The notes beneath the pieces were generated by a model. That model saw only the letters and a program-made list of their open reading frames with translations. It ran no database searches and was not told where the DNA came from. 12,159 bases of DNA from Propionibacteriaceae bacterium. Lineage in GTDB: Bacteria; Actinomycetota; Actinomycetes; Propionibacteriales; Propionibacteriaceae. The stretch covers positions 1-12,159 of the forward strand of contig JAIRRM010000156.1 of the NCBI GenBank assembly GCA_031255975.1. The letters run 5' to 3'. Both the position numbers and the translations under genes were made by a program. Positions 1 through 12,159 of this stretch are shown here, in pieces (position 1 is the first letter of the stretch; every line of letters starts with the position of its first letter).

Positions 1-3000
1 CCGCGCCGGACTGGAATGAGCCTTCTCGGTCAAGCACGTCGGGCTGAAGCCCAGCTTCGCACTCGTTCACGCTGTCCGGGCAGGCCGTCGAGCTGAAATC
101 GCCGTAGGCGTTGAAACCCGCGGGCACCCCTGTCTGCACCAGCAGATAAACGCCAGCCGACAGTTTCAGAGACTTCAGCGGACCGGCCGTGAACGGAACG
201 CTCACATGATCGCTGCCGCTCTGCCGGTCACCGGTCACCAAAGTGGCGTGCTCCAGCGCCGCGGCCCTACCCTCTGGGGTATCCAGGGTGGCGGGTGCGG
301 CATAGGCCGGATCGATGGCATAAAGCTCGTAGGTGGCTCCGGCCAACGGTTGATGCTCACCGCTAACGCCGTCTAGAACCTCGGAGAACGTATTGACCGT
401 CAGCCAACCGGTACCGCGATAGTTCGGGAAGATGACAGGTGCCGGTTCCTCGTGACCAGTCTCGCAGCCCTCACCTATTTCGCAGGGGGGGGTGCCAGCC
501 CCGGAGTTGCCGTTACCGTAGTAGGTGGTGAACAGCGTACCGCTATTGTCCATGGTGATACCGAAGGTCGGCGGGTTGGCCGGATCCCACTCGTAGGCGT
601 TGGGCAACGGTGAGCAGGTCGGGTTTCCTGGGTCTGGGGCTGCCAGGTCGCAGCCCTCCTTCGGCTTCTCCACGAACACCACACTCCACTGGGTGCGCTC
701 GTTCGCGTAGGCGTAGCGCACCGAGTTGGGCACAGGACTATGCCCCTCCTCCGTGCCGTCCCAGTCGATCATGCCAGGCACTACCCCGCCAATATCCAGC
801 GTGGCACCTATGCTGCCGTCCGGAGACGTGTTGATGGGGTAGTTGTGATACCTATATACGACCTCATCAGCGTCTGGCATCTCATCGCCGTTGGCGTCGT
901 CGGTGGCGGGATCCCACGTGAAGACCCCCCAGTCCTCACACGCTCCGCCTACAAGCGGAGAGCAGTAGAACACCTCGGTGATGTTGTAATACTCGGTGAT
1001 GAACTGGCCTTGACGCAGTTCGGCGTCACCCCAGTCTCTGGAGCGTGCCGTGGCGATCGGCGCATCCTCGAAGGTCGGCAGTATTTCATACTTGCCCTCA
1101 CTGGTGAGATACGCCGGGAATACATCGAACTCGATGCCGCCGAGGCGGGTGTCACGCACATACTCCATCAACGCCACGTCCAGCCTGAAACCATCCTTCT
1201 CAACGAAGTTGCGCACCAGGCGCGGCCCCAACGCGGAAGGAGAGTACGGAGCCCGGTTGGAGTTCCCGAAGGTGAGTTGACGATTGCCCTCGTTCCACTC
1301 GGTGTCCGGATTATCGGCGGGATGCTGGCCGAGTTCGACCAGAACACCGAGATGATCGGGAACCGGCTTCCAATCGGTATCGGCTTCGGCGTCAATACCG
1401 CTGGGCCGCGTGTTCTGGTAGTAGAGCGAAGTGGTTTGATCTCCCTGAGCATCTGCCGGAATCCAGCTATTCGGAGCGCTGTAGGAGTAGGGCATCTTGG
1501 TCTTGACCACAACATACTTACCGGCGGGAAGACCGCGCGACCAACCTCTGTTGCCGCCTTCCACATCACCAGCACCGATCTCAATGTTGTCTACCGGAGC
1601 ACCGGTGGTGCAGGTAGCCGGATCAATCGGATCGCAGCCAGGCGCGTCTTCGTCATACAGGTACACCGCGAACCAGGAATCGGTGACCACGATGCCGTCC
1701 CATTCCGTCTCGCCAAACATGGAGCGGAAATCACCATCGAAGCCGCCTGCCACACCACTTTCGGTATCGTGCAGCTTGATGGGCACTTCCCACAGTTCGA
1801 TGTGGAACTCGTTCACTCGGTTCGTCAACGTGTAGTAGGTACCGCTGCCATTGCCGCGCGGAGCCCAGAAGTTGGAATCATCGCCCTCATTGTCATGGCC
1901 ACGCACCAGGTAGTAGCCGGCGGCACGAGACGGATTACTGCTCGCGTCGCGCCACGCGAAACTGAACTGCTGTTCGATTGCGTTGTACGACAACCCGGAG
2001 GCGTTCTCACCCGGGATAGGCGGAACCACCACCTCTTCGAGCCAGTACTTGCGCAATGGGTCGATCTGGTTGAAGTTCAACATGCCGGCTTCATTGGAAC
2101 AGATCTGTGTCGCCGTCTCCACTGAACCGGGTTGTGGATCCGTCAGCACCACGTTGTTGCTGCCCGCCGCGACCTCATAGTACTGACCCAGGTCATCCCA
2201 AAGCACGAAGCAGGCACCTTCCAGGGGTTGACTTACCCGTCCGCCATCGTCATCCCATTCCATCAATTGACCACGCTTCTCGAACCTGATGTCGGGGCGC
2301 TTGATGTTGGTCCAGACAGCACTGATGGTGTTCTGGGTGGTTCCGTTAGAGGCGGTGACGCCGGGGATCTGCGACGACCCCGATGGCGGTGTGCCGACCC
2401 AGGAGACGGTCGGTTTGCCCCGCTCGTCGATCACTATCTCAATCGCAGCGCCACTGGCCACATACGGCGACATATCGCCGTACTCCTCAAGGTAGTAGGT
2501 GCCGGGCTTCAACCCGCTGAAGCTGACCACACCGCTGCTGTTGGTCGGCAAGATCATAGCCGTCGTTCCATCGGGGCAGCTACCCGGGGCGGTGCACCGC
2601 AACCGGAGGCTGGTCACAATACCGGCGCTGCTGCTGGCGTCACGCTTGGTGATGGTCACGGTGTTCAACGGAACGTTGAGCATCGTGCCCCAGGAATGGG
2701 TATTCGGCTGAGTGGAGAGGTCAACATAGTGGGCGCTCGTGATCTCAATCTTTTTCACGAAACCGCTATCGACAAGGGTTCCGGTAACGCCAATCTCGTC
2801 AATGTAAGACTCAGCCGTGGCCTTGGGAACCGAGTAGCCGCTGGTGGTCTTGAACCAGGATTCCCCTCCGTTGGCGGTGAAATACTCCGGCTTCATGTAG
2901 TTGGTACTACTCGTCAAAGTGGTCTCGACGAGCAGATAGGTACCCGCCGTCAGATTGGGGGTACGGACTACGCCGCTGCCATCCGGTGCCGCTAGCAAAC

Positions 3001-6000
3001 TGTGGAACACATACTCGGTCGCTCCGTCGTTCAGCCGGTATAGCGCAAACCTGGCATTACCCATACCGCTCATGACGTTAGCACCAGTGCTAGCGCTGAC
3101 ACGCTGCTTGGTGACAGTGACGATCGGCTTGTAGCGCCACAGGAAAGCCGCGGTCTGCACCGACGCCGGGTCGGCGGTGGTCGGGTCGATGCTGGCATTA
3201 CCAGCGCCGCCCGGAGCCTTCACCGCGTCGGCTATCGGGGTGGCCGGAGTGCCGGCGACGACGTTTACCGTGACCTGCTGCTGCACACTGCCACCGCTGG
3301 TCACGATGTTGTTACCGCCCATCGATTCGATCAACACCGCGCTGGCGCCAATGTTGATTGGCTCGATGGTGTAAGTACCGACGGGCACGAACCCGCGCCA
3401 ATCTCCCACATTCTGATTTATAGCCGGACTCGTCACATTCGGAATCGTCACATCGAGTACGCCATCCGAGTCCCACCAGCCGTCGTCAGCCGAGTTGAAG
3501 TCGGTCTTCACAATGCGGTACTGCTGAACGCCCTGAAGGGCTCCGGTACCGTTGAAGTTACGGATGGCCAGCTGACCAGCCCGCGACACATTGACGTGCC
3601 GGGGCACACCGATGTTCTCCGGACGCAGGCCGGAGTCACCGGCAGGTTGCGCGTTCAATGTCGGCATCTCGCCGGGCGCGCTGCCGAGGAAGAACTGGCC
3701 TCCGTACGAGCCTGCCGTGATGGTAAGCCGCAGGTTATCACCTTGATACAAGGCGTATTGCGTGGAGAGATCAACGCCCCCGGTACCGCTGCTGCTCCGC
3801 AACGAAACCTCACGCACGCAGTAGGTGCCACTTGGAAGTTCTTTACCCACATAATTCACGGTTGAGTTGTTCAACGTGAAGGTCACGTCGCCGCCGTTGA
3901 CCGCATCTTGTAGTGCGGTGGTGGCGCAACTGCCACTGAAGGGATCACCGCTAACCGGGTACAGGTTGTAGGTGGCCACGAAATTCTGGGTGCTGAAGGT
4001 GCCATCGGGATTCTGCAGCAGTTTGCCGGCGCGGAAACCGCCATAGTTGGATTGCAAGAAAGCGGTGTAAACGTTCAACGCCGCGGGTTCCGCCACTGTG
4101 ACCGACTGATCGGTGGTGGTCGGGATGGTTGGCGCGGTGGGGTCATGCAGTTCGATGGAATGCAACGCCCAGTCGGGGTCACCAGATTTGTCCCTGACGT
4201 AGAAGGTGGCGAAATACTGGATGTTCTCAAAGATCAGATAGTCGCCGCCCGCGTCGGTGCCGGCGTAATCGGCAACCAACACCTCAGTGGTGGCGCTTGC
4301 GTCGGTGTAGAGGCCGAGCGAGCCGTGGAAACTCACATACGTCGCCGGGTGCATGAACAGCTGCTGCCGCTTGGTGTACACCTTGATGTAACCGTGTTGG
4401 TTAGCATCGCTGCGGAAGTCGAGATAATCGGTGGGTAGGCGATACTCAGTGCCGTCCACATACAGGCGCGCAAGGCCGGTCGCGTCTGGAACGGAGACCT
4501 CAACCAACAGACCGTTGACGAGGTTGTCGTGAGCGGACTTAACGTCATCGCTGATTTCGTCACTTTGCCAAAGTCGGTACCAACCCGGCTCAAGATCGGC
4601 GAACGTCGCCAACGACTCGGCACCGTACAGGACAAGTCTCGCGGTACGTCTATCTTGCGGATACACCTCAATCTTGCTGCTGGCAGCACCATCCCTCACT
4701 CTGGCGAGGGTGAACTCCACATTCGAGAGATCTCCGGCGCTAAGATCGCTGTCCCCCTCCCATGACTTAGCCATCTCCACCGTGTAATAACGATCTGTAC
4801 CCGAGGCGTGCAGTATCTGGCTGATGGTCAGTGACGGCAGGGTTGGCTGCTGTTGCACCCACCCGAACGCCACCTCGGTGCTACCTCCAGGGGTGGTGGC
4901 TGGTACGTTGGTGGTGACCGGCGTATACGAAACGGATACCGTGTTGCTGACAGACTGCGGCTCCGTAAGAATCGCCGACTCGCCATAACGGTTGGTGTAA
5001 TCGTCCTTATCGAAAACGACCGTCACCTCGAAGGTGCGGGTGCCAGAGTACGCATCGGTGGAAACATCCGGCACATCAAACTCGATCTGCCGCGTATCGG
5101 CGGTGGGCTCGGTGACGACGACATCGGGCACACCCACCCTCACATTGCCTGTCTTGACTTCCTGAACCGTGATCGATGTGGGTACACCGCTGGCCAAGAA
5201 ACCGGAGAGCGTGTCACTGACATGAATGTTGTTCATGAACAACCGGCCGAAGGAGCCGCCAGGCTTGTTGGAACTGACGGTGAGGCGATACGTGATCGTG
5301 TGATTGTCTTCGGCATCTCCGTCGGTGACGACATCGACATAAGAGCGTTCCAGCAGGTCGGGGAAAACCTGCTCGCTGGGGTTGCTGGTAGAAGAGATGT
5401 ACTGGGAGACAGACCACACTTCATCGGCCCTGGAGGTGAGGGTGACTTCGCTGCTGTGGTTGTAACCCGATTCCGCGACTACGCCGGTGCCGAACGCGTT
5501 CTGGCCCGCGATGCCCTCAGCCTCGAAGCAGTACACCTGAACCGGGAAGGTATGTTCATCCGGGGTGATGCCATTGTCAAATGTGTACCGCAACGTCGCG
5601 TTCGGCATGGTGAAACTACCATACAGCGCCAGCTTCCAGATGAGCAGCGCCTTATCCAGCACTATGTCCGTGCCGGGGATGGCGTAGTTCTCGACGTACT
5701 GCGCTCCGGCGTCACCGATGTTCGGGGCGTCGGTATGGCTGGAATCCTGCATCACCGGCACCACGAGCAACATGCCAGCACCCGCCGCGGTCGACAGCCC
5801 GCTAGCCGAAAGTGCGAGCTTCACCAGTACGGATTGACCGGCCAGCACGTCGTAGGTGCCGCTGTTCACGGTGCATGTCAAGTTCGGGTTGATCTCGAAA
5901 TCACCGGAGCCGCCGTTTCGAGGTGCAGGTCGCTGCTGCGCCGGTGGAGCAGCCGGGGTATCATGCTCCGCCGGTGTCTCCGTGGACTCTGCGGGCTCCG

Positions 6001-6304
6001 CCGGTGTCTCCGCCGACTCCTCCGTGGACTCTGGCGGCTCCACGGGCTCCGTGGTCTGCGTTGGCACCTCTGGTTCACTGGTGGGATCCGATGTCGTAGC
6101 GTCGCCCGACGGTGCGCTCGTCGTGGTCTCGCTCGTGACTGGCTCACTCGGATCCGTCGGATCGCCGGAGGCGTTCAGTCCCGCGAGCCCCAGCCCCAGC
6201 GCCGCGGCCAGCACGATGGCCAGACCTCGCTTAGACCAACGCGGCGCGGCGTCATGACTTAGAGACTTAGCGTTATCGGAGTCGCTGTGCGAAAACATCC
6301 TCAT
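1..6304 (-). CDS. Giant secreted Cna-B/SpaA-like surface adhesin, 3' end outside window
   Basis: The minus-strand frame is open from the start to the window edge (2,101 codons); I read it line by line and found no stop. Residues 1-47 form a signal peptide: a charged n-region ending WSKR, then a hydrophobic core at 28-43. Residues 48 to about 132 are a Pro/Ser/Thr/Glu-rich stalk. About 330-455 resembles a DUF11-type domain (ITYRLTV, VSDTLSGF, SNTVSVSY). Cna-B/prealbumin-like units follow: about 1060-1135 (VTVTKQR ... GTYLLVETT), 1215-1280 (TITKRD ... GTYYLEEYG), 1338-1430 (RFEKRG ... YWLEEV), 1505-1605 (GLPAGKYVVVK) and 1968-2060 (LAGATYELYA ... GVYLLVQTGVPAGF). A weaker one lies near 500-610 (FADLEPGWYRLW). 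I infer a wall-anchored adhesin or pilus-like stalk protein; the C-terminus, where an LPxTG signal would be, is not visible. In-frame ATGs also occur at 6334, 6316 and 6298. I chose 6304 because GGATGGGG lies 6 nt upstream; the stronger AGGGAGGAG (6352-6360) is 17 nt from the 6334 ATG, so 6334 is possible. Confidence 0.88.
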   Translation of the reverse strand, partial: MRMFSHSDSDNAKSLSHDAAPRWSKRGLAIVLAAALGLGLAGLNASGDPTDPSEPVTSETTTSAPSGDATTSDPTSEPEVPTQTTEPVEPPESTEESAETPAEPAESTETPAEHDTPAAPPAQQRPAPRNGGSGDFEINPNLTCTVNSGTYDVLAGQSVLVKLALSASGLSTAAGAGMLLVVPVMQDSSHTDAPNIGDAGAQYVENYAIPGTDIVLDKALLIWKLALYGSFTMPNATLRYTFDNGITPDEHTFPVQVYCFEAEGIAGQNAFGTGVVAESGYNHSSEVTLTSRADEVWSVSQYISSTSNPSEQVFPDLLERSYVDVVTDGDAEDNHTITYRLTVSSNKPGGSFGRLFMNNIHVSDTLSGFLASGVPTSITVQEVKTGNVRVGVPDVVVTEPTADTRQIEFDVPDVSTDAYSGTRTFEVTVVFDKDDYTNRYGESAILTEPQSVSNTVSVSYTPVTTNVPATTPGGSTEVAFGWVQQQPTLPSLTISQILHASGTDRYYTVEMAKSWEGDSDLSAGDLSNVEFTLARVRDGAASSKIEVYPQDRRTARLVLYGAESLATFADLEPGWYRLWQSDEISDDVKSAHDNLVNGLLVEVSVPDATGLARLYVDGTEYRLPTDYLDFRSDANQHGYIKVYTKRQQLFMHPATYVSFHGSLGLYTDASATTEVLVADYAGTDAGGDYLIFENIQYFATFYVRDKSGDPDWALHSIELHDPTAPTIPTTTDQSVTVAEPAALNVYTAFLQSNYGGFRAGKLLQNPDGTFSTQNFVATYNLYPVSGDPFSGSCATTALQDAVNGGDVTFTLNNSTVNYVGKELPSGTYCVREVSLRSSSGTGGVDLSTQYALYQGDNLRLTITAGSYGGQFFLGSAPGEMPTLNAQPAGDSGLRPENIGVPRHVNVSRAGQLAIRNFNGTGALQGVQQYRIVKTDFNSADDGWWDSDGVLDVTIPNVTSPAINQNVGDWRGFVPVGTYTIEPINIGASAVLIESMGGNNIVTSGGSVQQQVTVNVVAGTPATPIADAVKAPGGAGNASIDPTTADPASVQTAAFLWRYKPIVTVTKQRVSASTGANVMSGMGNARFALYRLNDGATEYVFHSLLAAPDGSGVVRTPNLTAGTYLLVETTLTSSTNYMKPEYFTANGGESWFKTTSGYSVPKATAESYIDEIGVTGTLVDSGFVKKIEITSAHYVDLSTQPNTHSWGTMLNVPLNTVTITKRDASSSAGIVTSLRLRCTAPGSCPDGTTAMILPTNSSGVVSFSGLKPGTYYLEEYGDMSPYVASGAAIEIVIDERGKPTVSWVGTPPSGSSQIPGVTASNGTTQNTISAVWTNIKRPDIRFEKRGQLMEWDDDGGRVSQPLEGACFVLWDDLGQYYEVAAGSNNVVLTDPQPGSVETATQICSNEAGMLNFNQIDPLRKYWLEEVVVPPIPGENASGLSYNAIEQQFSFAWRDASSNPSRAAGYYLVRGHDNEGDDSNFWAPRGNGSGTYYTLTNRVNEFHIELWEVPIKLHDTESGVAGGFDGDFRSMFGETEWDGIVVTDSWFAVYLYDEDAPGCDPIDPATCTTGAPVDNIEIGAGDVEGGNRGWSRGLPAGKYVVVKTKMPYSYSAPNSWIPADAQGDQTTSLYYQNTRPSGIDAEADTDWKPVPDHLGVLVELGQHPADNPDTEWNEGNRQLTFGNSNRAPYSPSALGPRLVRNFVEKDGFRLDVALMEYVRDTRLGGIEFDVFPAYLTSEGKYEILPTFEDAPIATARSRDWGDAELRQGQFITEYYNITEVFYCSPLVGGACEDWGVFTWDPATDDANGDEMPDADEVVYRYHNYPINTSPDGSIGATLDIGGVVPGMIDWDGTEEGHSPVPNSVRYAYANERTQWSVVFVEKPKEGCDLAAPDPGNPTCSPLPNAYEWDPANPPTFGITMDNSGTLFTTYYGNGNSGAGTPPCEIGEGCETGHEEPAPVIFPNYRGTGWLTVNTFSEVLDGVSGEHQPLAGATYELYAIDPAYAAPATLDTPEGRAAALEHATLVTGDRQSGSDHVSVPFTAGPLKSLKLSAGVYLLVQTGVPAGFNAYGDFSSTACPDSVNECEAGLQPDVLDREGSFQSGA
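485..492. repeat. Homopolymer C8 tract inside the adhesin coding strand
   Basis: Eight consecutive G on the plus strand give eight C in the coding strand, read as ACC CCC CCC TGC. Losing one C would give ACC CCC CCT GCG AAA TAG, and gaining one would reach TGA four codons after the tract. Either slip would therefore truncate the protein at once. The tract lies about 1,940 residues into the protein, before the last visible Cna-B unit and any cell-wall anchor. Confidence 0.9.
863..898 (-). other. Calcium-loop-like motif (EF-hand/TSP3 type) in the adhesin
   Basis: Residues 1803-1814 read DANGDEMPDADE. Acidic or amide side chains fall at loop positions 1, 3, 5, 9 and 12 (D, N, D, D, E), the spacing of EF-hand and thrombospondin type 3 calcium loops. 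Such loops often stiffen linkers in large surface proteins. Calcium binding here is inferred from spacing alone. Confidence 0.5.
5965..6012. repeat. Exact 18-bp repeat with 30-bp period in the stalk region
   Basis: The sequence GCTCCGCCGGTGTCTCCG occurs at 5965-5982 and again at 5995-6012. It lies within the Pro/Ser/Thr/Glu-rich stalk of the adhesin, where it encodes repeated ETPAE-type units. Degenerate copies continue on both sides (GTGGACTCT twice). Such repeats allow stalk length to change by recombination or slippage in whole codons. Confidence 0.8.
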
Positions 6305-6403
6305 GGATAACCCCATCCAATGAGCGGTTCCCATGCGTGCTGGGAAGGCGGCTCCTCCCTTGACGGGACACGCATAACAAACCGGACTCAAGGTACCAGG
6401 GTT

Positions 6404-6433
6404 ATCCTAATCATTTTCACATTACTAAACCAA
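6404..6433 (-). promoter_or_regulatory. Candidate promoter of the adhesin gene
   Basis: On the minus strand TTGGTT (6428-6433) and TAGGAT (6404-6409) are separated by 18 nt, each matching 4 of 6 consensus positions. Transcription would start near 6397, giving a leader of roughly 90 nt. An A/T-rich stretch with a T9 run on the sense strand lies about 37 nt upstream of the -35 box. It is a pattern match only, but this is the best-placed pair I found in the region. Confidence 0.35.
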
Positions 6434-6585
6434 GTATTTTCTGCTCTGGCGTGGTCTTACGTTTACATCAAAAAAAAATAGTTTCTTTGAAGCTTTACCT
6501 CTATGTGACACAAATCTTCTCCTTAACGCGGGGCGAGGGGTATATAAAGGCGCTCCAGCGACACGTCCGCCCAGAAAATGTTGTT

Positions 6586-6598
6586 GCCAACAGTTGGC
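6586..6598. promoter_or_regulatory. Short perfect dyad, possible operator or weak trpS terminator
   Basis: GCCAAC-A-GTTGGC is a perfect 6+1+6 inverted repeat. Read on the minus strand it can fold as a 5-bp stem with a 3-nt loop, followed by AACAACATTTTCT. It could thus be a weak terminator for trpS transcripts or a protein-binding operator upstream of the adhesin promoter. The sequence alone does not decide between them. Confidence 0.3.
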
Positions 6599-6738
6599 TA
6601 AACCCATGGTTCAGACTCGCCACACCATCCACCCCAGCGCCTCAGCTTCAACTCGGGTAGCTTCGCTCTGTTGACCGGTGCCGCGCAACCATCCGGCGGC
6701 GTGTCCCAATCATGCCCAGGTGTCGGCATAAAAGAGCG

Positions 6739-7845
6739 TCAGTACTTCATCCGCATGGCGGTGCGCACCTCGTCAAGAGTGGCTTCAGCAACCACGTTGG
6801 CCTTCGCATTACCGGCGGCCAACACCTGTTCCAGGTAGCCTGGATCGGCAAGCAACTCGGCGCGCCGGGCCCGGATCGGAGCAAAGAAGGTGTTGACGGC
6901 CTCGGTGACATATGCCTTCAACGCGCCACCGCCACCATCGCCGATGCCCTCGGCGATGGCTTCCGGATCGCCCCCAGTGGTCAACGCCGCCAGCAATAGC
7001 AGATTGGACACCTCGGGCCGTCGCGCCGGATCGTAGCTGATATGTCGATCAGAATCCGTCACCGCTTTCTTGATGAGCCTCGCGGTAGCATCGGCGTCCA
7101 TACCGATCTCAATGGTGTTGCCCTTGCTCTTACTCATCTTGGTGCCATCGGTGCCCAGGATATTCATGGCTTCGCTGAGCAGGGCTTCTGGCTGCGGAAA
7201 CACCGGAGTATCCGGGGTGCTGCGCCCGTAACGCTCATCGAAGCGCCGTGCGATCACCCGGGCCTGTTCCAGATGCGGCAGTTGATCTTTGCCCACCGGG
7301 ACAAGGTGCGCCTTACAGAAAAGGATGTCGGCGGCCTGATGCACCGGGTACGTGAGCAGCAGCCCACTCATGGGCCGCCCTCCGGTAGCCTCATGCTCGG
7401 CCTTCACCGTGGGGTTACGTTTCAGTTCGGCATCGGTGACCAACGACAAAAATGGCAACAGCAACTGATTTAGCGCCGGGATCGCCGAGTGCGTAAAGAT
7501 CACAGCTCGCTCCGGGTCGATGCCACACGCCAAATAATTAGCGACAGCGGAGTAAACGCGCTCCCGGATCGGCCCCACCCCATCGCGGTCGGTAATGACC
7601 TGGTAATCGGCGGAGAGCACCCAGGTCTCGACGCCGAGGTTCTGCAACCGCACCCGGTTGGCGAGCGAACCGAAGTAGTGCCCGATGTGCAGTTCGCCGG
7701 TGGGACGATCCCCGGTGAGCACCCGCCAACGCTCGGGGTGTGCCACCAGATCGGCTTCAATCTTCAGGCTGCGCCGCTGGCTAGCCGCCAGGCTGGCCTC
7801 CGAAGTCGCCGCTGCCAGGTTGTCACCCACGTTGTCTTCCGACAT
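6739..7845 (-). CDS. trpS: Tryptophan--tRNA ligase, TGDRPTG/HIGH subtype
   Basis: Cytoplasmic class I aminoacyl-tRNA synthetase that activates tryptophan with ATP and loads tRNA-Trp. The protein has 368 residues. The class I signatures are clear: TGDRPTGELHIGHY with a true HIGH at 53-56, and KMSKS at 236-240. The substrate-pocket segment YPVHQAADI sits at 166-174 (the Asp that contacts the indole should be D173), followed by VPVGKDQ. The common bacterial form reads SGxQPSG...HxGNY instead. The TGDRPTG form marks a second bacterial TrpRS subgroup, which to my recollection includes auxiliary, indolmycin-tolerant actinobacterial enzymes and the main enzyme of some Firmicutes. About 40 residues precede the catalytic core, making it longer than the usual 330-340. 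The start is firm: an in-frame TAA lies two codons upstream, and AAAAGG precedes the ATG. It lies 83 nt after the PHP gene and is probably co-transcribed with it. Confidence 0.96.
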   Translation of the reverse strand: MSEDNVGDNLAAATSEASLAASQRRSLKIEADLVAHPERWRVLTGDRPTGELHIGHYFGSLANRVRLQNLGVETWVLSADYQVITDRDGVGPIRERVYSAVANYLACGIDPERAVIFTHSAIPALNQLLLPFLSLVTDAELKRNPTVKAEHEATGGRPMSGLLLTYPVHQAADILFCKAHLVPVGKDQLPHLEQARVIARRFDERYGRSTPDTPVFPQPEALLSEAMNILGTDGTKMSKSKGNTIEIGMDADATARLIKKAVTDSDRHISYDPARRPEVSNLLLLAALTTGGDPEAIAEGIGDGGGGALKAYVTEAVNTFFAPIRARRAELLADPGYLEQVLAAGNAKANVVAEATLDEVRTAMRMKY

Positions 7846-7928
7846 GCCTTAACCTTTTCCGGCACGTCCTCTACCTTTTAGACATGCCCTTCGCTCATCC
7901 GGTTTCTGCTCGTTGTCGGCACCGGTCT

Positions 7929-8867
7929 CTAGCCGAGCCCTACTCCGCCGCGCCGCGCGATCCGCGCCAGCACCTCGTCCAAGCTTGCCACAGTGGTGGT
8001 GTTGCAACCCAAGTCATGCTTGATCTTGCCGCTGCCGTGGTAGTCGGACGAGCCGGTGCCGATGGCTCCGACGCGCACCGCCAGGGCGTGCAGTTCGGCC
8101 CGATCAGTTGCGTCATGGTCACGGTGATCCACCTCGAAACCATCCAAACCTCGCTGGAGCACCAGGTCAGCCAGCATCGCCTTCGTCAGCACGTCGCGGG
8201 CACTGCGACCCCAAGGATGCGCGATGAGGGCCACTCCCCCGGCCTGGTGGATGAGTTCGATGCCCTTTAGCAGCGGACAACGCAGATGAGGGACGTACGC
8301 CGGGCCATCGTCATAGAGCCATTTATCGAACGCCTCGCGCCGGTCACTCACATAACCCTTGGCCACCATCACGTCGGCGACATGCGGACGGCCCACCGTG
8401 GTGGCGTCCTCGGCCTGGATGTAAATCTCCGCCGCCTCCACCGGCATCCCCAACGCGGTAAGTGCCGCCGCCATCTTCCCGACCCGTCCATCACGGGATT
8501 CACGGATCGACCGCATCGCGTCGTCTAACGGCCCCGGTTCGTCCCTCACTCCCAGACCAAGCAGGTGCACCGAACGACCTTCAAGTTCGGTGGACAGTTC
8601 CACCCCGCCCAACACGCTGATGGGGCGTGGCATCACCAACTGGTCGGTGGAATCGCCCACAAGATGATCGGTGGAATCGCCCGCCGCAAGGTTTACGGCG
8701 TCCCGAAGGGCACGAGCTTCCATCCTCGCCGCGGACAATCCAGCCAGGCTATCGTGGTCGGTGAGCGCCACCACGTCGAGCCCCAGCGCGGCGGCATGAC
8801 GTACCAACTCCGCCGGAGAATCGGTGCCATCCGAAATACTCGAGTGGGTGTGCAGATCGATACGCAT
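7929..8867 (-). CDS. PHP-domain metal-dependent phosphoesterase, TrpH/RNase AM (YciV) family
   Basis: The 312-residue protein carries the PHP metal site: DLHTHSSISDGT (H6, H8, D13), LTDHDS (D37-D39), GGVE (E90), IAHPWG (H217) and GSSDYHG (D275, H277). GRPHVADVM (159-167) is also typical of this family. Characterised relatives remove phosphate from nucleoside 3',5'-bisphosphates or act as a 5'-to-3' exoribonuclease trimming rRNA 5' ends (E. coli RNase AM). Which activity applies here is not visible. I set the start at ATG 8867 because the family begins MxxDLHTHS. The frame stays open upstream to 9053, but that stretch has no domain-like sequence and overlaps the regulatory region of the divergent glu operon. 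The ribosome binding site is weak (GGTGGT). Residues 63-78 hold a tandem GDSTDHLV/GDSTDQLV duplication in the variable stretch between the second and third metal motifs. Confidence 0.93.
   Translation of the reverse strand: MRIDLHTHSSISDGTDSPAELVRHAAALGLDVVALTDHDSLAGLSAARMEARALRDAVNLAAGDSTDHLVGDSTDQLVMPRPISVLGGVELSTELEGRSVHLLGLGVRDEPGPLDDAMRSIRESRDGRVGKMAAALTALGMPVEAAEIYIQAEDATTVGRPHVADVMVAKGYVSDRREAFDKWLYDDGPAYVPHLRCPLLKGIELIHQAGGVALIAHPWGRSARDVLTKAMLADLVLQRGLDGFEVDHRDHDATDRAELHALAVRVGAIGTGSSDYHGSGKIKHDLGCNTTTVASLDEVLARIARRGGVGLG
8641..8688. repeat. 24-bp tandem duplication in the PHP gene
   Basis: Units 8641-8664 and 8665-8688 share 17 of their first 18 bases (core TCGGTGGAATCGCCC) and diverge in the last six. 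The period is eight codons, giving GDSTDHLV followed by GDSTDQLV. The reading frame is preserved, so copy number could vary without inactivating the enzyme. Confidence 0.85.
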
Positions 8868-8999
8868 ACCACCATTCAACCGCAGTTGGGGCAAGAAACG
8901 ACAACACGGCCTACCAACAGCGCCCCTCCGGAGCATGGCCCCAAAAGCGGCGGCCCAGCCGATGAAAAGCCGGTGCCCGGAGGAAGAAAAACGAAAACA

Positions 9000-9015
9000 T
9001 GGACGCCCTCGTCCA
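9000..9015. promoter_or_regulatory. Small hairpin with a T-rich 3' flank on the minus strand
   Basis: TGGACG-CCCT-CGTCCA is a perfect 6-bp stem with a 4-nt loop. On the minus strand it is followed by TGTTTTCGTTTTTC, resembling a short intrinsic terminator or leader attenuator ahead of the PHP gene. A second small dyad, CGCTC-TACAC-GAGCG, lies at 9055-9069 in the same divergent region. Function is unproven. Confidence 0.3.
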
Positions 9016-9042
9016 GCATATGAACGTCCGCTAAACTCGCAA
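9015..9042 (-). promoter_or_regulatory. Candidate promoter for the PHP-trpS transcript
   Basis: On the minus strand TTGCGA (9037-9042) and TATGCT (9015-9020) are spaced by 16 nt, each with 4 of 6 consensus matches. This gives a leader of about 140 nt before the PHP start. The adjacent hairpin at 9000-9015 would overlap the start of such a transcript, so the assignment is weak. Confidence 0.27.
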
Positions 9043-9124
9043 AAGGGATTCATCCGCTCTACACGAGCGTGTAACAGGGCCGCAATATGCGTATGACAGG
9101 CTCGTTCCCAAGGTCACCGAAGCA

Positions 9125-9137
9125 AGAGAGGGGCTCA
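9125..9137 (+). promoter_or_regulatory. Ribosome binding site that sets the TTG start of gluA
   Basis: The purine-rich AGAGAGGGG run (about 9125-9133) stands 7 nt before TTG 9141. No comparable site precedes the ATG codons at 9087 or 9093, which is why the shorter, TTG-initiated form is preferred. Confidence 0.7.
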
Positions 9138-9140
9138 CCG

Positions 9141-9905
9141 TTGACTCAGACCGATGTACCCGCTGGTGCTGAAACTGTCGTCGCGCTGAGAGACGTGCAG
9201 AAATGGTTCGGCGATCTCCACGTGCTGAAAGACATCAACCTGAGCGTAGAACGTGGCGAAGTGGTAGTGGTGATCGGGCCATCCGGCTCCGGCAAGTCCA
9301 CGCTCTGCCGCACCATCAACCGCTTGGAACCGATCGACTCCGGCACCATTGAGGTAGCCGGTGAACCACTGCCCGCAGAGGGCAAAGACCTCGCCATGCT
9401 GCGCGCCGAAGTGGGCATGGTGTTCCAAAGTTTCAACCTGTTCGCCCACAAGACGATCCTCGACAATGTGACGCTCGGCCCCATCAAGGTGCGCAAAACC
9501 GATAAGGTGACCGCCCGCGAGGAGGCGCTGCAACTACTTGACCGAGTGGGGATTCGCAGCCAAGCCGACAAACTGCCAGCAGAACTTTCCGGCGGCCAGC
9601 AACAGCGCGCCGCCATCGCCAGGGCGCTCGCCATGCACCCCAAGCTGATGCTTTTCGACGAGCCGACGTCGGCTCTCGATCCCGAGATGATTAACGAAGT
9701 GCTGGACGTGATGACCGACTTGGCGCAGTCCGGCATGACCATGATCGTGGTGACACACGAGATGGGGTTCGCCCGCCGCGTCGCTGATCGGGTGGTTTTC
9801 ATGTCCGACGGAGAAATCATGGAAGAGGCCACCCCAGAGGAGTTCTTCACCAACCCGGTCACTGATCGGGCCAAGGACTTCCTTGCCAAGATCCTGCAAC
9901 ATTGA
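9141..9905 (+). CDS. gluA: Glutamate-type ABC importer, ATP-binding subunit GluA
   Basis: This is the ATPase of a polar amino acid (glutamate/glutamine class) uptake system; it acts as a dimer on the cytoplasmic face and drives the GluC/GluD pore. With a TTG start the protein has 254 residues, normal for the family. All motifs are intact: Walker [10 protein letters not shown] (46-54), Q-loop VFQSFNLF (Q96), signature LSGGQQQR (149-156), Walker B LMLFDEP (169-175), D-loop SALDP, and switch histidine VVTHEMGF (H206). The frame is open back to ATG 9087, but only TTG 9141 has a well-placed ribosome binding site and starts where relatives start. It is first in the operon, 48 nt before gluB, and is transcribed divergently from the PHP gene. 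The substrate assignment to glutamate rests on the operon order A-B-C-D and on similarity of its partners to the corynebacterial system. Confidence 0.94.
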
Positions 9906-9953
9906 CGGCTACCGTTTCCGTCATGTCAGAGTAAGAAGATGGAGAGGAACACA

Positions 9954-10859
9954 ATGATGAAGAAGAAGTTCATGGCCGCCGCTTTCGGCACCATGTGCCT
10001 AGCGCTGCTAGCCACCGGCTGTAGCTCCGACGACCCAGCCGCGCCAGGCACCAGCGGCACCACTTCCACCATTCCGGCTGGCCCGACGCTCAAGGTGGTC
10101 GGTTCGCCGTTCACCACCGAGCTTTACGGCGTGGGTCTGCCCTTCGATTCGCCCTACTGCGAGCAGGTGAACACCGCCATCAAGGCCATGATCGCTGACG
10201 GCACTTGGGAGGCCAAGCTCGACGCGCAGATGCAGGGTGTGCTCTACACCCCGAACGCCGAGAAGAACGCGCCGGAGAACCTGGCCAACGAGGTGTGCGA
10301 CCATACCGGCACCGCCGCGCTGGTCACTTCTGGCCGTCTCACCATTGGTATCAAGTTCGACCAGCCGAAACTAGGTTTCAAGAACCCAGACGGCACCTAC
10401 TCTGGTTTCGATGTGGATGTCGCTATCTATGTCGCCAACGCGCTCGGCTTCTCCCCGGACAAGATCGACTGGGTGGAGGCCCCGTCCCGGGCTCGTGAGA
10501 CCATGCTGGAGAACCATCAGGTTGACATGATATTCGCCACCTACTCCATCACCGAAGCCCGCAAGGAGAAGGTGGAGTTCGCCGGCCCGTACTTTGTCGC
10601 CGGACAGGATCTATTGGTACGTGGCGATGACGACCGCTTCACCGGCCCCGATTCGCTGAACTCGTCTGATTTCAGGCTCTGCTCCGTCACCGGCTCGACC
10701 CCAGCCCAGAAGATCAAGGATACGTACGCCAAAGACGTTGAATTGGTCGAGGTTACCGGATACAGCGAGTGCGTCACCGCACTGCTGGCAGGTCGAGTGG
10801 ATGCCGTGACCACCGACGACATCATCCTCGCCGGTCTGGCCGCCGCTGGCACCCAGTAA
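9954..10859 (+). CDS. gluB: Glutamate-binding lipoprotein GluB with circularly permuted sequence order
   Basis: Extracellular solute-binding lipoprotein (SBP_bac_3 type, 301 residues) that should deliver glutamate or a related amino acid to GluCD. The start is ATG 9954, 6 nt after GGAGAGG. The signal peptide ends in lipobox LATGC (C23), followed by a Ser/Thr/Pro-rich linker (24-45). The order then departs from the family. Residues 46-93 (LKVVGSPFTTELYGVGL ... DGTWEAKLD) match what is normally the C-terminal end. A connector (94-126) follows, then the normal N-terminal start GRLTIGIKFDQPKLGF (127 on), the ligand-site segment ATYSITEAR (R203), CSVTGSTPAQK and YSECV (C243, C273, the usual disulfide), and VDAVTTDD (D288/D289). 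The protein ends 12 residues later, just where VVGxPF would follow in relatives such as corynebacterial GluB. All lobes are accounted for once. I see no frameshift, and no C-terminal remnant after the stop. Two extra cysteines (C69, C115) might pair across the new connection. Confidence 0.92.
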   Translation: MMKKKFMAAAFGTMCLALLATGCSSDDPAAPGTSGTTSTIPAGPTLKVVGSPFTTELYGVGLPFDSPYCEQVNTAIKAMIADGTWEAKLDAQMQGVLYTPNAEKNAPENLANEVCDHTGTAALVTSGRLTIGIKFDQPKLGFKNPDGTYSGFDVDVAIYVANALGFSPDKIDWVEAPSRARETMLENHQVDMIFATYSITEARKEKVEFAGPYFVAGQDLLVRGDDDRFTGPDSLNSSDFRLCSVTGSTPAQKIKDTYAKDVELVEVTGYSECVTALLAGRVDAVTTDDIILAGLAAAGTQ

Positions 10860-10894
10860 GGTGCGGTCCTTGACGGACGCCTAGAAGTTGTCAT

Positions 10895-10942
10895 CGGGCC
10901 GGTTGTCCCCCGTATATAGCCCGTATAAAATCAACCGGCCCG
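10895..10942 (+). promoter_or_regulatory. Strong inverted repeat between gluB and gluC
   Basis: CGGGCCGGTTG (10895-10905) and CAACCGGCCCG (10932-10942) are a perfect 11-bp inverted repeat around a 26-nt loop. No T-run follows, so it is not a classic terminator. In ABC importer operons such stems often protect the binding-protein mRNA and lower permease expression. The loop holds two copies of CCCGTATA (10909-10916, 10920-10927) with TATATA and TATAAA sequences. TTGTCA lies at 10888-10893, so a second promoter for gluCD is also possible. Confidence 0.75.
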
Positions 10943-10975
10943 GTGGCGACACCACGCCAAAGAGGGGACGTTGTA

Positions 10976-11698
10976 GTGGAAGCATTCTTTGACTATCTAG
11001 GACGGTACTGGGAGTTCATCACCCAGCGCGATTCAGACGGCGATTTGATCTACAACATCTTGGGTGCCTTCTGGGTGAACATCCAGCTCACGCTCTGGTC
11101 AGGACTGCTGGCCTTGGTGCTTGGCACCGTGGTGGTAGCGATGCGTATCAGCCCCATCGCGTCACTCAGGGCAGTCGCCACCGCCTACACCAACATCTTC
11201 CGCGACATCCCCCTCACCGTGGTGATCTTGATGATGTGGCTGGTGGTGTGGACCCAACTCGGGGTCACCTTCGGCGGCAAAATGATCACCGACTTCTTCG
11301 TCTTGGCCGTCATCGGCCTGGGGTTGTATCACGGTTCATTCATGGCCGAGGCGCTACGTTCCGGCGTCAACACCGTGCCGCTGGGGCAGGCCGAGGCCGC
11401 CCGCGCCATCGGGTTGACCTTCATGCAGTCGGCACGCATGGTCGTGCTGCCGCAGGCGTTTCGCGGTGCCGTCGCCCCCATCGGCAACACCCTGATAGCC
11501 CTTATCAAAAACACCACTGTCGCCTCGGTCGGCGCGGTTTCCACCGAAACGTCATCCACCATGGCAGGCATGATCGAGTTCGGCCCCCAGTTCATCTTCC
11601 TGATCTTCCTGACGTTTGCCCTCGGCTACGTGGCCATCGTCATCCCGGTGGGCACGCTCAGCACCTACCTCTCGCGCAAACTGGCGGTGAAACGATGA
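10976..11698 (+). CDS. gluC: Glutamate-type ABC importer permease GluC
   Basis: Membrane subunit (240 residues) that forms the transport pore with GluD. Hydrophobic segments lie at about 27-57, 68-97, 104-124, 165-189 and 204-229. The cytoplasmic coupling loop that docks on GluA is plain: EALRSGVNTVPLGQAEAARAIG, with EAA at 140-142, G146 and LP at 158-159. The start is GTG 10976, preceded by AGAGGGG (10961-10967) with an 8-nt spacer. The frame extends back to GTG 10943, but that codon sits at the edge of the intergenic inverted repeat and has no ribosome binding site. The stop overlaps the gluD start in ATGA, so gluC and gluD are translationally coupled. Confidence 0.94.
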   Translation: MEAFFDYLGRYWEFITQRDSDGDLIYNILGAFWVNIQLTLWSGLLALVLGTVVVAMRISPIASLRAVATAYTNIFRDIPLTVVILMMWLVVWTQLGVTFGGKMITDFFVLAVIGLGLYHGSFMAEALRSGVNTVPLGQAEAARAIGLTFMQSARMVVLPQAFRGAVAPIGNTLIALIKNTTVASVGAVSTETSSTMAGMIEFGPQFIFLIFLTFALGYVAIVIPVGTLSTYLSRKLAVKR

Positions 11699-12159
11699 GT
11701 GAAAAAACTGCCAGAATGGCCAGCAGACACCGCCGCGCCGAACACTCGGTGCTATTCGATTCCCCAGGCCCGCGCACCAAGCGCGTCATCGCCCTCGCCA
11801 ACATCATCGGCGTGGCGTTGGTGGCGTACGGCCTATACGCCCTTTTCGCGGTGCTTAAAGATAAAGGGCAGATGGACCCGAAACTGTGGGCGGTGGTTGT
11901 CGATGCGAAGTCATGGACCAACTTCTTCCTGCCCGGCTTGCTCAACACCTTCCGCGCCGCAGCGGTGGCCATCGTCGGTGCCATCGCCTTCGGGTTTATC
12001 CTCGGCGTGGGTCGTCTGGCGATGAACCCGCTCATCAGGGGGATATGCGGTGTCATCGTGGAGTTCCTGCGCGCCGTGCCAGTGCTACTGATGATGATCT
12101 TCCTTTGGAGTTTTCTCGGCAGGCTGCGTGTGCCGTCGCCTGACTTCTGGGCGGTCAGC
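11695..12159 (+). CDS. gluD: Glutamate-type ABC importer permease GluD, 3' end outside window
   Basis: Second permease of the importer. The first 155 codons are visible, starting at ATG 11695 inside the ATGA overlap with the gluC stop. The N-terminal LFDSPGPRTKR (20-30) is a characteristic stretch of actinobacterial GluD proteins. A first membrane segment follows at about 31-54 (VIALANIIGVALVAYGLYAL), and then FFLPGLLNTFRAAAVAIVGAIA... and the conserved VEFLRAVPVLLMM (122-134) near the second and third segments. The coupling EAA loop and the stop codon lie beyond the right edge. The frame is intact as far as it can be seen. Confidence 0.93.
   Translation, partial: MSEKTARMASRHRRAEHSVLFDSPGPRTKRVIALANIIGVALVAYGLYALFAVLKDKGQMDPKLWAVVVDAKSWTNFFLPGLLNTFRAAAVAIVGAIAFGFILGVGRLAMNPLIRGICGVIVEFLRAVPVLLMMIFLWSFLGRLRVPSPDFWAVS

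Follow-up and report, generated by a model that had tools for sequence, protein, structure and literature searches.

Circular permutation among the substrate-binding proteins of ATP-binding cassette (ABC) importers is already known from one natural case in the type I fold and from an engineered case in the type II fold. The natural permutant, TpMglB-2 (Tp0684), has been classed as 'Type Ic / Cluster Bc', and its report describes a type I sugar-binding fold that is broken inside the N lobe, has an extra hinge crossing, carries a permuted part 13% identical to its E. coli MglB counterpart, and still binds glucose and changes conformation (PMC4990184). The report finds no obvious advantage in the arrangement, and its authors suggest that the topology might relieve the binding site of strain imposed by the tether (PMC4990184). 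The engineered permutant is a LAO-binding protein built into lysine Förster resonance energy transfer sensors in which one of the two interlobe linkers was deleted and the old termini were joined by a 12-residue (GGS)4 stretch, leaving the new ends on different lobes (PMC5087393). Here we analyze a 12,159-nucleotide stretch of Propionibacteriaceae DNA (assembly GCA_031255975.1, contig JAIRRM010000156.1, positions 1-12,159; hereafter the window) whose gluB gene (9954-10859, forward strand, 301 amino acids plus stop) encodes a glutamate-binding lipoprotein that profile and structure-database sequence matches confirm to be a natural circular permutant of GluB, a type II binding protein of the SBP_bac_3 family.

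The swapped order of the chain was revealed by a purpose-built profile of 178 normal-order GluBs (length 242), which matched the window protein twice, with profile positions 173-238 at residues 45-109 (66.8 bits) and positions 1-167 at residues 129-298 (284.6 bits). Searched alone, the moved segment scored 70.0 bits, and the best of its shuffled versions reached 5.8 bits (1395 of 2000 shuffles scored). Rotation of the protein to the canonical order yielded a single match over positions 1-238 of 242 at 366.3 bits, so that homology extends along the whole mature GluB; the native segment order is not canonical, and the protein was therefore filed as a permuted variant of GluB. The original prediction had expected two swapped matches from Pfam SBP_bac_3, an expectation that held for the 178-GluB profile and failed for Pfam itself, as PF00497 aligned in one stretch (residues 129-228 on profile 1-96 of 132; 88.7 bits against a curated cut-off of 26.4). 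In a sequence search of solved structures, the first three quarters of type II amino-acid-binding proteins corresponded to residues from about 120-128 to 292-297, and their last part corresponded to residues 42-87. The same two-part swap was seen against 5eyf (16-183 and 185-229), 4zv1 (10-171 and 183-224) and 6h1u (44-217 and 219-265), with second pieces that are each non-significant alone (independent E-values of 0.33, 0.79 and 6.3). NCBIfam returned nothing over cut-off for P0001 or for the normal-order relative P0046 and is uninformative either way.

The permutation is shared by many other proteins. Among 260 homologous proteins, 44 are permuted alike (the window's own included) and 215 are in normal order; the remaining record, P0045 (L005, 4857-5759), has a mis-set start, annotated too far downstream in a permuted gluB, with most of the moved segment missing and the full permuted frame open upstream. 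The window belongs to a draft genome of 212 contigs, a setting in which assembly or binning could have joined two pieces of a normal gluB in the wrong order, but such an artefact has practically no chance of explaining the data because the permutation recurs in many independent records. The permutants come from many separate contigs, 42 of them could be aligned at 62-85% identity to the window protein, and 43 of the 44 have the same 13-residue join between the old termini, with 14 residues in the last. Both parts of the protein are also under purifying selection as judged from codon comparisons. When the window was compared with L001, the moved segment had a nonsynonymous rate (dN) of 0.066 against a synonymous rate (dS) of 0.73, and the remainder of the protein had rates of 0.057 and 0.74. 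Three further pairs likewise showed dN below dS in both parts, most weakly in the moved part of L002/L005 (0.084 versus 0.30). The permuted protein is thus maintained by selection, next to ordinary gluA, gluC and gluD genes, with higher dN in the 13-codon join and the N-terminal stretch.

A survey of 146 genomes, comprising the window's own and its relatives, gave some match in 133, and the best 30 matches, examined as loci, comprised 7 permuted and 23 normal-order genes. The normal-order profile split each of the seven into two adjacent matches in reversed order in the whole-genome search, with 296-320 bits for the larger part. Comparison with orthologues in related genera, which the original prediction had proposed, located the same permutation in the window's genus (G000, G002, G003, G004, G006) and in a second genus of the family (G026, G077). 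The named carriers are Propionibacteriaceae metagenome-assembled genomes (L001-L005), whose sample codes appear to resemble those of termite-gut surveys. In four further genomes of the carrier genera (G001, G005, G047, G063) the normal-order profile search found no close GluB, and the operon is patchy or missing from these drafts. Besides the permuted gene, the window's genome has a single SBP_bac_3 match, a divergent, lipoprotein-like gene (L013 1216-2187, on G000:C181) that is in normal order by eye and is followed by a polyprenyl-synthase-like gene. Three order-level relatives with weaker matches and long query ranges (G116, G108, G091) were considered as independent permutants and proved to be in normal order. 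In searches with the join-spanning region, 30 and 43 permutants ranked first and later rows covered about half of the region, among the best 120 of 191 and of 1311 matches; word sampling limits the reach of these searches, and distant permutants are possible.

The anatomy of the chain can be laid out in some detail. The gene is preceded by a Shine-Dalgarno-like GGAGAGGA (9941-9948) read from the sequence, and its first 23 codons (9954-10022), from the ATG at 9954 to C23 with Ala at -3, encode the signal peptide and lipobox. A loose lipobox pattern was found in 42 of the 44 permutants, the start being absent from the other two records, and C23 is invariant across the 42 aligned. A linker of variable length, low conservation and low predicted local distance difference test score (pLDDT) follows at residues 24-45 (10023-10088). 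The moved segment, residues 46-115 (10089-10298), is the old C-terminal end of GluB as delimited by the first profile domain, the structure model and the alignment, and contains the hinge strand, the last strand and two helices of lobe 1, and a tail (94-115) ending with a conserved Cys. Comparison of the 44 permutants places the join of the old C- and N-termini at residues 116-128 (10299-10337), after which the old N-terminal part, residues 129-301 (10338-10856; second profile domain and model), supplies the remaining lobe 1, the first hinge crossing and lobe 2 and stops just short of the old second crossing. The chain was opened in the loop after TTDDIILAGLAA, immediately ahead of the second hinge crossing. 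The old C-terminal tail now passes through the join into the old N-terminal strand, so that the end of lobe 1 comes first, its start second and lobe 2 last. In the normal-order relative P0046 (Luteimicrobium) the chain reads ...TTDDIILAGLAAQPANKGKVKVVGKPFTTENYGVG...DGSWQ...GTGYKPDASKNPPTPAACG; the window protein instead has its C-terminal end at ...TTDDIILAGLAAAGTQ, and LKVVGSPFTTELYGVG...DGTWE...GVLYTPNAEKNAPENLANEVC lies near its N-terminus, 22 residues past C23.

This anatomy upholds the core of the original prediction and corrects several of its details. The reading frame, the lipobox cysteine C23 and the segment order are as claimed; the circular permutation itself is borne out by the sequence profiles, the 44 permuted proteins and two trees described below, and the placement of the new ends at the second hinge crossing gains support from these and from the secondary-structure order in a confident model. 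The normal N-terminal start that had been placed at about residue 127 is present, with the old N-terminal part beginning at 129. Residues 94-126 had been taken for the new joint, but 94-115 are the ordinary C-terminal tail of GluB and the true join is the shorter 116-128. Nor does the lipid anchor join the hinge strand directly, as the anchor cysteine lies 22 residues before it. The proposed new brace, C69-C115, is an ancestral pair: both Cys are found in 127 of the 178 normal-order proteins, neither in 51 and a single one in none, a both-or-neither pattern from which we infer that the pair was inherited, and each of the two positions holds a Cys in 44/44 permutants.

A monomer model of the window protein was predicted with confidence (predicted template modelling score, pTM, 0.79), and its secondary-structure order fits the permutation. 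Foldseek and VIA-align matched residues 118-301, and the rest did not align in order; both methods follow chain order, which puts the moved segment beyond their superposition, and the Foldseek alignment with 6h1u (263 columns, root-mean-square deviation 10.8) was uninformative. The moved segment would complete lobe 1 in cis. Each lobe would then be one continuous stretch, with a single covalent crossing between the lobes and with the lipid anchor leading into the second hinge strand. Residues 46-115 might alternatively complete lobe 1 of a neighboring molecule in a swapped dimer, an exchange that the hinge opening, the 13-residue join and the tail could permit and with which the monomer prediction is compatible. 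We consider this very improbable given the confidence of the monomer model, and the cysteine pair of the moved segment and the tail is inherited from normal-order proteins, where it would lie within one chain.

The residues presumed to contact the ligand (R203, G247-T249 and T287-D288) do not vary among 42 permutants, nor do their counterparts among 49 normal proteins, and normal glutamate binding between the lobes is therefore expected. The ligand would bind in the cleft, and closure and delivery to GluCD would proceed as in ordinary GluB, with affinity perhaps lower or opening easier; relief of strain is a further possibility.

Beside gluB on the forward strand, gluA (9087-9905; alternative start TTG 9141; 9138-9905 used in family searches), assigned from its reading frame and locus comparison, encodes an ABC ATPase. 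The permease gene gluC (10976-11698; family search and locus comparison) and a second permease gene, gluD (11695-12159; reading frame and locus comparison), lie downstream, the latter cut by the contig end. An ATPase and two permease genes beside gluB are the makeup of a GluABCD system, and gluA and gluC flank the permuted gluB in all nine distinct permutant loci (in L002 the locus ends within gluC), with gluD following in all eight loci that reach it, the window's truncated copy among them. This neighborhood bears on the suggestion that the permuted protein is a sensor, or a weak-affinity receptor selected for fast release, rather than an ordinary high-affinity transport component. That suggestion takes encouragement from the engineered LAO-binding protein permutant, which bound lysine with a dissociation constant of 107 uM, whereas 3 uM has been reported for the native form, a comparison confounded by the attached fluorescent proteins (PMC5087393). 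We nevertheless find it improbable, as gluA and gluC adjoin the permuted gene in nine loci and no other close GluB that could serve those permeases was found in the seven draft carrier genomes, where no other match exceeded 130 bits (highest 129.9, in G004).

The reading that we favor, at a probability of roughly 87%, is that the protein is a functional, naturally permuted GluB acting as the lipid-anchored binding subunit of a GluABCD importer of glutamate, possibly also of aspartate. Several observations weigh against it. Pfam by itself gives no sign of a swap, since PF00497 aligned to residues 129-228 only; the mean pLDDT of the model is only 67 over residues 101-110; and the roles of the presumed ligand residues are assigned from related proteins. 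The carrier genomes are drafts, 76-98% complete, so a second gluB may be missing from the assemblies, and no tandem gluB intermediate was encountered among the loci examined.

Two phylogenies bear on the origin of the permuted gene. In a GluB tree for which permuted proteins were rotated to the canonical order, the 26 permutants chosen group as a single clade (100/100) in a set of 87 rows, and in a GluA/C/D tree the permuted operons form one clade of 9 among 29 rows (100/100). Because the sampled permutants form one clade, the simplest reading of the sequences is that the permutation arose once, before the carriers diverged. In the unrooted GluA/C/D tree, a 100/99 branch sets the permuted operons with Luteimicrobium, Arthrobacter and L047, the last from the window's family, and apart from the family's other operons, and the branch joining them to Luteimicrobium has a support of only 91/89. 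This separation from most operons of the window's family suggests that the permuted operon was acquired by horizontal transfer. The permuted gluABCD operons (L001-L005, L044-L046 and window 9087-12159) group with Micrococcales-type operons. The permutation itself would have arisen when gluB was tandemly duplicated or fused and the outer parts were then lost, and duplication with trimming is a plausible route. Beyond the gluB stop codon the frame continues as GRLEVVIGP, which bears a vague likeness to the old continuation; a decayed downstream copy was considered, but nothing similar was seen by eye in the eight other permutant loci and we judged the likeness to be chance. When 9 permuted loci were compared with 20 normal ones, the sites that differed and were fixed to at least 85% in each group came to 6 in GluA, 4 in GluC and 0 in GluD. 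In GluC (10976-11698) the permuted operons have RDIPL where normal-order operons mostly have RNTPL (N64D and T65I, L003 numbering), along with G77V and L86F, and these states are among those fixed to at least 85% within their own group. No link between the fixed differences in GluA and GluC and altered docking was apparent. Elsewhere in the window, positions 2-6391 of the reverse strand encode a very long surface-type protein of 2130 amino acids, which is open at the edge of the window and has a SpaA-like prealbumin domain.

Set against ordinary GluB and other SBP_bac_3 lipoproteins (type II, cluster F; nearest solved structures 5eyf from E. faecium, with glutamate bound, and 6h1u, GlnH), the window protein shares both sequence parts, the presumed ligand residues, the cysteine pair of lobe 1 and tail, the lipoprotein signal and the gluA, gluC and gluD neighbors. 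It differs in that the old C-terminal 70 residues lie near the N-terminus, the old ends are joined and lobe 2 comes last. Relative to TpMglB-2, the window protein has a type II amino-acid fold with clear homology in both parts, and its break falls at the hinge, in the loop before the second crossing strand, and not within the N lobe, where an additional hinge crossing is needed. Its sequence matches SBP_bac_3, and no sugar-binding protein appears by title among the 50 structure entries listed for it, although failing to appear there does not amount to proof. The engineered LAO-binding protein is likewise type II, with one interlobe linker opened and the old ends joined, and the choice between the two linkers may differ. 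That permutant is man-made and flanked by fluorescent proteins, whereas the window protein is natural, lipid-anchored, part of one clade and maintained by selection. The engineered design reportedly follows Okada et al. 2009.

Among the papers listed by the literature searches (titles and abstract starts), no natural permutant of an SBP_bac_3 (type II) protein was found, and as far as these searches reach the large type II amino-acid-binding family has here its first case of natural circular permutation. Annotation of such proteins gives only an ordinary SBP_bac_3 match, and permutants of this kind can therefore go unnoticed. Evolution has here produced an arrangement that resembles the hinge cut made by engineers. 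The carriers' normal-order relatives are about 60-72% identical over the main part and have the same neighboring genes, so that the effect of chain order and anchor position on lobe closure and transport is directly addressable. More speculatively, and with a likelihood that we would put well below even, the protein could establish a natural 'type IIc' class of ABC receptors whose hinge-placed anchor and single lobe crossing are adaptive and alter closure and release; were this so, a membrane-tethered receptor would hand glutamate to its permease in a manner unlike that of ordinary GluB.
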